Assembly (NCBI RefSeq): GCF_000612585.1
Contig: NZ_JFCA01000001.1
Coordinates: forward strand, 62,001-126,000
Direction of reading: 5' to 3'
DNA: 64,000 nucleotides
Origin: Pseudomonas sp. CHM02
GTDB taxonomy: Bacteria > Pseudomonadota > Gammaproteobacteria > Pseudomonadales > Pseudomonadaceae
A program made the position numbers and the translations under genes. The notes below the pieces were generated by a model. That model had not been told where the DNA came from, searched no databases, and worked only from the letters and a program-made list of their open reading frames with translations. Shown piece by piece: positions 7,265 through 14,625 of this stretch (position 1 is the stretch's first letter; each line of letters opens with the position of its first letter).

Positions 7265-7338
7265 ATTGTGACGGATCGCTTCAAAAAAATGTCATACGAG
7301 CTGTCTAAAATCCGTTATAAAGCTGCAACTTAATTTAT

Positions 7339-7426
7339 AGGCAGGTGGCCGACCGGGTACTGGGTGAAGCTTTCAGTTGAAAAGCTGAAAAGGCTTTCTA
7401 TACACTTACCCACTGGCCAGCTGCCT
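7339..7426 (+). promoter_or_regulatory. structured 5' leader of acpP
   Basis: AGGCAGGTGGCC (7339-7350) pairs with GGCCAGCTGCCT (7415-7426) at 11 of 12 positions. GGGT/ACCC and inner CTTTCAG-type hairpins can form inside it. The structure ends 14 nt before the acpP Shine-Dalgarno. It may insulate the message or govern access of ribosomes and small RNA. Confidence 0.5.
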
Positions 7427-7434
7427 GAATTTGT

Positions 7435-7454
7435 CCATTAGGAGTTAAACAAGG
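7435..7454 (+). promoter_or_regulatory. acpP ribosome binding site, predicted RgsA target
   Basis: This 20-nt segment carries the acpP Shine-Dalgarno AGGAG. It is complementary to the minus-strand small RNA at 13569-13588 with one mismatch. RgsA is reported to repress acpP in P. aeruginosa, so this is the likely pairing site here. Confidence 0.7.
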
Positions 7455-7455
7455 T

Positions 7456-7692
7456 ATGAGCACCATCGAAGAGCGCGTCAAGAAAATCGTCGCCGAGCAA
7501 CTGGGCGTTAAAGAAGAAGAAGTGGTCAACACTGCTTCCTTCGTAGAAGACCTGGGTGCCGATTCCCTTGACACCGTTGAGCTGGTGATGGCTCTGGAAG
7601 AGGAATTCGAGACCGAAATCCCGGACGAAGAAGCTGAAAAAATCACTACTGTTCAAGCTGCTATCGACTACGTTACTAGCCACCAGGCGTAA
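7456..7692 (+). CDS. acpP: acyl carrier protein
   Basis: AcpP carries growing acyl chains on a 4'-phosphopantetheine arm. The 78-residue acidic protein has the attachment motif GADSLD with Ser37 and the normal four-helix length. AGGAG lies about 10 nt before the ATG. It has its own long leader after fabG and a strong terminator downstream, so it can be expressed above its neighbours. The Shine-Dalgarno region is the predicted target of the small RNA near 13.6 kb. Confidence 0.98.
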
Positions 7693-12724: not shown

Positions 12725-13510
12725 ATGCTTGTAGATTCCCATTGCCACCTTGATCGCCTCGACCTTGCCCAGCACGGCGGCTCCCTTGACGCCGCGCTCG
12801 AAGCCGCACGCCAGCGTGGCGTAGGGCACTTCCTGTGCATTGGCGTCAGCGCGGAAAATGCGTCCGACGTCAAAGCCCTGGCCGAACGTTACGCCGATGT
12901 GGATTGCTCGGTGGGTATCCATCCGCTGGACCTCAAGCCCGGTGAAGCCCCAGCCCTCGACTGGCTGCTGGGTGAACTCAATCACCCGCGCGTCGTGGCC
13001 ATCGGTGAAACCGGTCTGGATTACCACTACGAGCCTGAAGCCGCCGAGTTGCAGCAGGCCTCGTTCCGCCTGCACCTGCAAGCCGCCCGGCAGACCGGCA
13101 AACCGGTGATCGTCCATACCCGTGGCGCCCGCGCCGACACCCTGACCCTGCTGCGCGAAGCCGCGTTGCCGCAGGCCGGTGTGTTGCACTGCTTTACCGA
13201 GGACTGGGACATGGCCAAGGCCGCCCTGGACCTGGGCTTCTACATTTCCCTGTCGGGCATCGTCACCTTCCGCAACGCCGACGCCCTGCGCGATGTTGCA
13301 CGCCAGGTGCCGGCAGACCGCCTGCTGGTGGAAACCGATTCGCCGTACCTGGCGCCGATCCCCCATCGCGGCAAGCCGAACCTGCCCGAGTATGTGCGTG
13401 ATGTGGCGGATTACCTGGCGATGCTGCGCGGCGAGTCCTACGAACGCTTTGCCGAGCAGACGACCGAGAACTTCAAGCGCCTGTTCCCACTGGCTCACGT
13501 AGCCGGCTGA
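12725..13510 (+). CDS. TatD-family metal-dependent hydrolase (YcfH-like)
   Basis: TatD proteins are metal-dependent nucleases of the amidohydrolase fold. The 261-residue protein has metal-binding DSHCHLD at the N-terminus, the EtGLDYHY glutamate, HTRG, HCFTED and the ETDSPYL aspartate in the usual order. It is full length. It would normally be preceded by pilZ, which is missing here. The minus-strand rgsA terminator lies just downstream. Confidence 0.94.
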   Translation: MLVDSHCHLDRLDLAQHGGSLDAALEAARQRGVGHFLCIGVSAENASDVKALAERYADVDCSVGIHPLDLKPGEAPALDWLLGELNHPRVVAIGETGLDYHYEPEAAELQQASFRLHLQAARQTGKPVIVHTRGARADTLTLLREAALPQAGVLHCFTEDWDMAKAALDLGFYISLSGIVTFRNADALRDVARQVPADRLLVETDSPYLAPIPHRGKPNLPEYVRDVADYLAMLRGESYERFAEQTTENFKRLFPLAHVAG

Positions 13511-13528: not shown

Positions 13529-13646
13529 AAAAAAAACCCGGGTTCTGGGGGGTGAATCCGGGCTAAGACCATTAGGAGTAAAACAAGGGCACACGGTCCG
13601 TTGGTACCCAGGTCGGCGCTTCACTTGGGGGAGATGTCACGCCGAC
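13529..13646 (-). ncRNA. rgsA: RgsA-type small regulatory RNA
   Basis: On the minus strand an RpoS-like -10 (CAATACT, 13659-13653) predicts a start near 13646. The RNA then forms a 5' hairpin (GTCGGCG with CGCCGAC, arms 13646-13640 and 13618-13612) and ends in a CCCGG/CCGGG hairpin followed by eight U (13536-13529), about 118 nt in all. Nucleotides 13588-13569 are antisense to the acpP ribosome binding site with one mismatch. In P. aeruginosa the RpoS-dependent sRNA RgsA (PA2958.1) lies next to the tatD gene and is reported to repress acpP and fis, so position, size and target agree. The exact 5' end is inferred. Confidence 0.82.
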
Positions 13647-13956
13647 AGTTCAAGTATTGATCAGTATCCGATTCAGTCCAGTCGCGGCTGGTCGTTTTTT
13701 AAACAGATTTGGAATACGCGCGCTTCGCTTGAGTTCTCATCAGGCAGGTGCACGGGTGTCGTTGTTGCGTATTATTTCTGACTGATACCCATAAAAACGT
13801 TGGCGTATTGAAAGTAAAGTGCGTGACGGGGTCACATAGACATTGCCCAACGACCGTTCAGTCGGGATAATCCCTCGCATCGGGTAAATCGTATCGGCAC
13901 GTATCCGTTGCCGTGCGTAACCCTCCCCTATATCGACCTCTGCAGACTTCTTCCTC
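13647..13956. other. intergenic region between rgsA and the TetR gene
   Basis: I see no supported coding sequence here. It should hold the RpoS-type promoter of rgsA (minus strand, -10 at 13659-13653) and the TetR-gene promoter. A weak TTGCCG (13908-13913) with TATCGA 17 bp later is the best plus-strand candidate. The small gene PA2958 found here in P. aeruginosa is not recognisable. Confidence 0.5.
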
Positions 13957-14625
13957 ATGCACAAAGAACCCCGTAAGGTCCGTGAGTTTCGCCGCCGTGA
14001 GCAGGAAATTCTCGACACCGCGCTCAAGCTGTTCCTCGAACAAGGTGAAGACAGCGTCACCGTCGAGATGATTGCGGATGCCGTGGGTATCGGCAAAGGC
14101 ACGATCTACAAGCACTTCAAGTCCAAGGCCGAGATTTACCTGCGCCTGATGCTCGACTACGAGCGCGACTTGAACGAGTTGCTGCATTCGGCTGATGTGG
14201 ACAAGGACAAGGAAGCCCTGTCCCGCGCCTACTTCGAGTTCCGCATGCGTGATCCGCAGCGCTACCGCCTGTTCGACCGCCTGGAAGAGAAGGTGGTCAA
14301 GGGCCATCAGGTGCCGGAGATGGTCGAGGAACTGCACAAGATCCGTGCTTCCAACTTCGAACGCCTGACCCTGCTGATCAAGGGCCGCATCAGTGAAGGC
14401 AAGCTGGAAGATGTGCCGCCGTATTTCCACTACTGCGCTGCCTGGGCTCTGGTGCACGGCGCCGTGGCGCTGTACCACTCGCCGTTCTGGAGCAATGTGC
14501 TGGAGGATCAGGAAGGTTTCTTCCAGTTCCTGATGGACATCGGCGTGCGCATGGGCAACAAGCGCAAGCACAGCGGCGAGCCAGCAGCTATCGAAGCAGC
14601 GCCTGCGCAAAACCCTGCCACGTAA
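13957..14625 (+). CDS. TetR-family transcriptional regulator
   Basis: The 222-residue protein has an N-terminal TetR helix-turn-helix (about residues 10-60, with TVEMIADAVGIGKGTIYKHFKS-like content) and a helical ligand-binding domain. Position and family match P. aeruginosa PA2957. No Shine-Dalgarno is evident before the ATG, which follows a pyrimidine-rich stretch. The C-terminus is a low-complexity Ala/Pro tail. The ligand is unknown. The next gene is 115 bp away and separated by an inverted repeat. Confidence 0.9.
   Translation: MHKEPRKVREFRRREQEILDTALKLFLEQGEDSVTVEMIADAVGIGKGTIYKHFKSKAEIYLRLMLDYERDLNELLHSADVDKDKEALSRAYFEFRMRDPQRYRLFDRLEEKVVKGHQVPEMVEELHKIRASNFERLTLLIKGRISEGKLEDVPPYFHYCAAWALVHGAVALYHSPFWSNVLEDQEGFFQFLMDIGVRMGNKRKHSGEPAAIEAAPAQNPAT

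Follow-up and report, generated by a model that had tools for sequence, protein, structure and literature searches.

RgsA in Pseudomonas sp. CHM02: a long match to the acpP ribosome-binding site and a seed kept across many families

A small RNA gene of Pseudomonas sp. CHM02 lies about 6 kb from acpP and is complementary to the ribosome-binding site of that gene, which raises the questions of whether the match reflects regulation, whether acpP accounts for the conservation of the pairing stretch, and whether the short distance between the two genes has any meaning. We analyzed the locus in a window of 64,000 nucleotides, that is, the whole stretch of DNA under study (contig NZ_JFCA01000001.1, positions 62,001 to 126,000), and followed it through related genomes. 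The preliminary description, made from the sequence alone, had read the RNA as rgsA, located after tatD and acting on acpP; in P. aeruginosa this gene is presumably PA2958.1. The features of the window that carry the argument are the following.

7435-7454, plus strand: target site, the Shine-Dalgarno region of acpP (CCATTAGGAGTTAAACAAGG), complementary to the RgsA seed
7456-7692, plus strand: acpP, acyl carrier protein (NCBIfam NF002149, 153.7 bits, cut-off 106)
12725-13510, plus strand: tatD-family gene, convergent neighbour of rgsA (TIGR00010, 276.1 bits, cut-off 206)
13646-13529, minus strand: RgsA small RNA, predicted transcript of 118 nt from the inferred start to the end of the U run
13529-13562, minus strand: Rho-independent terminator with CCCCCC in the loop (sequence and fold)
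13569-13588, minus strand: seed region CCUUGUUUUACUCCUAAUGG with the core ACUCCUAAUGG kept across the order (complementarity to 7435-7454)
13612-13646, minus strand: 5' hairpin with a C-rich loop (UCCCCCAA; RNA fold)
13652-13659, minus strand: RpoS-type -10 element (CAATACTT; sequence motif)
13681-13676, minus strand: -35-like element CTGGAC (sequence)
13688-13717, minus strand: conserved upstream regulating sequence (URS; from sequence, the URS being described by Gonzalez 2008)
13957-14625, plus strand: TetR-family regulator, divergent neighbour of rgsA (TetR-family matches weak, all under the curated cut-off)

The 5' hairpin, the terminator with eight U and the RpoS-like -10 that had been claimed for this transcript were all recovered at the right coordinates in sequence and fold. 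The terminator stem runs from 13562 to 13537 and is followed by eight U at 13536-13529, and the predicted fold has two stems ahead of a mostly unpaired seed, the first of them being the 5' hairpin, and ends in the terminator. The identity of the RNA as rgsA holds as well. The Rfam covariance model RgsA (RF00628) matches with 190.1 bits against a gathering score of 88.4 (cmscan, E 3.4e-46). This match spans 13538-13731, beyond the predicted transcript, because the Rfam model takes in promoter-side sequence; its extra 87 nt upstream are a discrepancy already described for P. syringae (PMC3709562). The convergent tatD gene and the TetR gene adjoin rgsA as described by Gonzalez 2008, who also places a URS upstream of rgsA (PMC2375449), and the closest named tatD loci, at 98% protein identity, come from P. 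salomonii, P. edaphica, P. fluorescens, P. reactans and P. libanensis, which places the window in the P. fluorescens group. In its Rfam score, its length of about 120 nt, its RpoS-type -10 and URS (both recognized as motifs only), its Rho-independent terminator and its tatD and TetR neighbours, the locus is like RgsA (P16, RF00628) of P. aeruginosa. By synteny, the TetR gene at 13957-14625 would correspond to PA2957, which has been named PvrA (PMC10805311) and which the title of Pan 2020 presents as a regulator of long-chain fatty-acid use.

The pairing with acpP proved equally sound. Of the 20 bases at 13588-13569 on the minus strand, 19 are complementary to 7435-7454, ungapped and with a single mismatch, and the paired stretch covers both AGGAG and AAGG upstream of the acpP start codon (ATG at 7456). 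The duplex of seed and acpP leader has an energy of -33.7 kcal/mol, whereas 1000 dinucleotide shuffles of the leader average -13.6 kcal/mol (sd 3.0) and reach -24.9 kcal/mol at best. The best rival among 108 open-frame starts of the window that bear a Shine-Dalgarno sequence gives -26.9 kcal/mol, in a list where many frames are not genes and with which acpP, having failed the Shine-Dalgarno filter, was compared from outside. The 20-mer CCATTAGGAGTNAAACAAGG, which has one free position, occurs with at most three mismatches at two places only in the 6.66-Mb genome, acpP and rgsA. Given the energy relative to shuffled leaders and the uniqueness in the whole genome, the complementarity is more than chance. 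For seed and target the predicted mean unpaired probabilities are 0.73 and 0.63, respectively. Another element of the acpP leader is a long stable hairpin, predicted at 7338-7427 on the plus strand just upstream of the ribosome-binding site, whose 3' arm (CCAGCTGCC) is shared by many leaders in Pseudomonadaceae.

That RgsA acts on acpP is already known, since the repression is in print for P. aeruginosa. In that species RgsA is described as RpoS-dependent and in need of Hfq, Lu 2016 (doi 10.1111/mmi.13458) is cited for a base-pairing mechanism that represses acpP and fis, and Lu 2018 for a repression of rpoS as well (all as given in PMC8395346, PMC9308961 and PMC5686131). Bases 71-77 of RgsA, named as required in PMC9308961, fall within the pairing found here, which involves bases 59-78 when 13646 is counted as base 1. 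An Hfq CLIP peak is reported at the 3' end of the P. aeruginosa RNA (PMC6890931), and Hfq binding or Hfq-dependent stability is described for P. aeruginosa and P. syringae (PMC6890931, PMC3709562). The finding is the orthologue of a published regulator-target pair. It differs from the published system in fis, whose leader in CHM02 is G-rich, lacks AGGAG and pairs more weakly with the seed (-23.9 versus -34.1 kcal/mol for acpP).

The explanation in which we place high confidence takes the locus as RgsA, with an RpoS-driven seed pairing that blocks the Shine-Dalgarno sequence of acpP and a seed that seems older than the strong pairing with this gene. In such a mechanism sigma-S would transcribe RgsA in stationary phase or under stress, the mostly single-stranded seed would pair, with Hfq, across the Shine-Dalgarno sequence of the acpP mRNA, and ribosome loading would be blocked, leaving less acyl carrier protein as growth stops. 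For CHM02 itself the account draws on an RNA gene recognized by homology, on promoter-like and terminator elements and on the 19/20 complementarity, and its other steps are carried over from P. aeruginosa; by this analogy the same regulation of acpP may be expected in this strain of the P. fluorescens group. The complementarity could instead be an accident of a conserved Shine-Dalgarno sequence and play no part in regulation in CHM02. Such an accident would suit the rgsA deletions in P. fluorescens and P. syringae, for which the passages concerned, both from before the acpP report, describe phenotypes under oxidative and heat stress and make no link to acpP (PMC2375449, PMC3709562), and it would suit the lack of covariation described below. 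The extent of the match, its distance in energy from the shuffled leaders, its uniqueness in the genome and the repression published for P. aeruginosa all speak against an accident, which we consider improbable.

How far does RgsA reach beyond this strain? With the Rfam model at E<=0.001, homologues were found in 91 of 391 genomes (CHM02 included) of the sampled order, which we take to be Pseudomonadales in GTDB, and they fall into 35 of 137 genera and 17 of 43 sampled families. Families are labelled here by f and genera by g with a number, f1 being Pseudomonadaceae, and RgsA-negative means not detected under strict filters, which lose weak matches. Only 21 of the 91 genomes pass the Rfam gathering score, so that annotation at this score would miss the other 70. 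The distant matches are mostly convincing by eye: they combine an A/T-rich upstream region (often TTTAAAA-like) with a -10 that in most of them reads AATACTT or nearly so, and the RNA itself has the seed between a 5' loop rich in C and a terminator whose loop is often C-rich too. In the order-wide alignment the majority of rows have the C-rich 5' stretch. In open-access papers we found no earlier report of RgsA outside Pseudomonas.

A class-wide sample of 370 genomes, searched with a model (R1) built from 32 aligned RgsA sequences, gave three matches, all within the order (CHM02, G018 and a partial match in G032); the order is represented among the 370 by only five genomes, of which G033 and G064 had no match under the strict filters. 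Since RNAalifold finds a consensus of only three pairs in the order-wide alignment, R1 is essentially a sequence profile. It is also weaker than the Rfam model for Pseudomonadaceae (8e-11 versus 1.9e-20 for G018), and the absence of RgsA outside the order is therefore provisional. Some genomes carry RgsA-like sequences of other kinds. Second copies in G186 (L192) and G205 (L195) have a different 5' half with a similar seed and terminator, and G032 (L502), counted as RgsA-negative, has a partial RgsA-like 3' end with GGUCUUAACCCG, a terminator with a C-rich loop, an altered seed and no match to the Rfam model.

The pairing stretch is kept throughout most of this range. Of the 91 RgsA genomes, 82 carry CUCCUAAUGGU or a near variant as their seed, as found by a locator that itself requires CTCC...TGGT, and the nine genomes without it include f1g4 and f43g68. 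The located seeds come in six spellings, one of which, CTCCTAATGGT, is found in 61 genomes. An alignment of 32 sequences, picked by hand at about one per genus with second copies and near-duplicates left out, has 11 invariant columns: ACTCCT, three of the TGGT part (T, G and T), and two T in the terminator run. These columns flatter the seed, as the seedless homologues (L147, L150, L157, L183, L189, L191, L198) were omitted, and 82 of 91 is the fair count. In the order-wide alignment the conserved stretch runs on into UGGUCUU. Within Pseudomonadaceae, nhmmer found RgsA in 75 of 80 named loci, with an identical core complement CCATTAGGAGT in 73 and a deviating one in L099 and L100; of the five loci without a match, at least L057 and L069 are incomplete and L108 does carry the core. 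In 38 RgsA-carrying genomes the string GACCATTAGGAG was counted 34 times, 33 times in RgsA-type loci (once in the second copy of G186) and once elsewhere, in G031. On this single occurrence outside RgsA, a long perfect target elsewhere was rejected for the 38 genomes. The reversed control pattern of GACCATTAGGAG occurs 52 times; because it differs in composition, we do not claim that the string is avoided.

Does the acpP leader follow the seed? Covariation of the two would favour regulation of acpP, though it is no necessary mark of it. The leader is readable in 66 named Pseudomonadaceae pairs, has TAGGAGT in every one of them and varies around this motif. The longest contiguous match is 14 bases in one pair, 11 in 42, 10 in two, 9 in three and 7 in 18, which amounts to at least 10 complementary bases in 45 of the 66 pairs and 7-9 in 21; the mismatch-rich pairing in close relatives that the preliminary description had named as its own refutation is thus not what most pairs show. 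In genus g3 of the family, with the acpP leader CCATAGGAGTGAAAACAAGG, the match is shorter than the ungapped 19/20 of CHM02; P. aeruginosa lies outside the named loci. Covariation of the 20-nt region with the acpP leaders, in turn, found no support. The core is fixed in 73 of 75 loci, and within the family an exchange of partners costs nothing (own -26.89 versus permuted -26.81 kcal/mol, p=0.34, 46 unique pairs). Across 32 genera the signal is marginal (own -16.94 versus swapped -16.40 kcal/mol, p=0.08 with a stricter seed locator), a first run with at least two mislocated seeds (G019, G349) having given p=0.02-0.03.

Beyond Pseudomonadaceae, 31 RgsA-positive genera, some of them without a seed, show no advantage in the pairing of their acpP leaders over 30 genera without detected RgsA (p=0.35, 0.20 and 0.22 with three versions of the seed). 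Two motifs are commoner with RgsA in the same genera, AGGAG (26 of 31 versus 16 of 30, p=0.01) and AGGAGT/C (22 of 31 versus 12 of 30, p=0.014), which leaves room for a weaker link to acpP outside f1. Family f1 itself stands out, with mean acpP pairing energies of -24.2 and -27.5 kcal/mol for two long seeds (4 genera). In f1g4 and f43g68 the syntenic RgsA homologue has no seed, yet TTAGGAGT is kept before acpP, which argues that the Shine-Dalgarno sequence of acpP is maintained for its own sake. Read most simply, the comparison points to an old seed, a Shine-Dalgarno sequence suited to it, and an extended strong pairing that is found only in Pseudomonadaceae and is longest in the fluorescens group. 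As the seed is order-wide and seems to predate the strong pairing with acpP, this gene is probably just one among several targets of Shine-Dalgarno type and not what keeps the seed conserved.

A broader form of this idea would make RgsA a general anti-Shine-Dalgarno RNA, in which ACUCCUAAU and the C-rich loops fit a large number of leaders, AGGAG-type or G-rich, the long acpP match of the fluorescens group being a lineage-specific bonus on top of a strong Shine-Dalgarno sequence. RsaE-type RNAs are small RNAs with C-rich anti-Shine-Dalgarno loops, and RgsA would likewise have C-rich single-stranded stretches facing Shine-Dalgarno sequences. That, outside Pseudomonadaceae, acpP leaders fit the seed no better where RgsA was detected than where it was not would agree with such a role, and the fis leader, G-rich though without AGGAG, would fit the C-rich loops. 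Further leaders came from a search for ATTAGGAGT followed by ATG after 2-9 nt, which gave 39 places in 13 of 17 genomes; among the 30 places with loci read, pal/oprL and yajC recur, both identified by eye from protein starts. CATTAGGAGT, with ten bases complementary to the seed, stands before pal/oprL in four of eight Pseudomonadaceae genomes (CHM02, our G000, with loci L326/L368, and three of seven others), TTTAGGAGT stands before pal in two more of the eight, and yajC has ATTAGGAGT in front of it in one genome each of f1, f7 and f9.

These matches are not order-wide: leaders from 66 genomes led us to reject pal and yajC as targets of the order, and outside Pseudomonadaceae no difference between 17 RgsA-positive and 30 negative genomes was found for pal (p=0.16) or yajC (p=0.40). 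When the leaders of acpP, pal, yajC and fis are compared, with the start codons of the latter three picked by a heuristic and a few of them doubtful, acpP is the strongest partner of the seed in 19 of 30 genomes (in 13 of the 23 that lie outside f1) and another of the four beats it in 11. A general anti-Shine-Dalgarno role also has to face the acpP match of CHM02, which is far longer than a Shine-Dalgarno sequence alone and unique in its genome, and the continuation of the conserved stretch into UGGUCUU, which to our knowledge is not part of the anti-Shine-Dalgarno sequence of 16S rRNA. We regard this role as conceivable and somewhat doubtful. Within Pseudomonadaceae only, pal/oprL may be put forward as a weak new candidate target of RgsA; no earlier report of an RgsA-pal link was found in open-access papers.

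The gene order around rgsA bears on the closeness of regulator and target to which the preliminary description had drawn attention. The 6-kb distance is real here but has no evident meaning: leaving the window genome aside, acpP lies less than 10 kb from rgsA at 47 of 92 RgsA places, in 8 families. Where the two are linked, acpP always lies past the 3' end of rgsA and on the other strand, within a fabD-fabG-acpP-fabF-pabC-mltG-tmk-holB block that sometimes has one gene missing from the matches. Linkage is complete in f1 (20 of 20 places), f3, f9, f26, f37 and f41, and is seen at 5 of 6 places in f43 and 7 of 11 in f25, where the remaining four genomes have acpP 13-14 kb away. One could see in these numbers a functional linkage of the small RNA and its target, through local action or shared regulation. 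In nine families, however, no acpP was present in the stretch from 12 kb downstream to 3 kb upstream of rgsA (f2, f7, f14, f15, f16, f19, f29, f31, f36; some stretches ended at contig ends), most of the unlinked families carry the same or a near seed, and the block is conserved as a whole in the linked families. We judge a functional linkage to be very improbable: the spacing of 6 kb comes from a gene order that was inherited and is not required.

A separate observation concerns the other side of rgsA. At 42 of the 92 places a TetR homologue with at least 48% identity is found upstream of rgsA in divergent orientation, no more than about 3 kb away, some matches ending at the edge of the stretch; it is present at all 20 Pseudomonadaceae places and is kept also in families without acpP linkage (f2, f19, f29, f31). 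Gonzalez 2008 describes the TetR neighbour as kept in P. putida KT2440 only (PMC2375449).

For the order as a whole, we lean slightly towards the view that RgsA is an order-wide stress small RNA, present in 17 of 43 families and in none outside the order in our sample, with a nearly fixed seed ACUCCUAAUGGUCUU whose strong pairing with acpP is restricted to Pseudomonadaceae and fullest in the P. fluorescens group; its ancestral target or role would have been other than acpP, with pal/oprL as a candidate. As both RgsA and its acpP target are known, the finding in CHM02 confirms rather than discovers this regulatory pair. What is new is that the pairing stretch is near-identical in many families and that the strong acpP match occurs only in Pseudomonas and close kin. 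The seed of one small RNA can thus stay nearly fixed across families while its reported target keeps little beyond the Shine-Dalgarno sequence, and this raises the testable question of which partner ACUCCUAAUGGUCUU has in the distant relatives.
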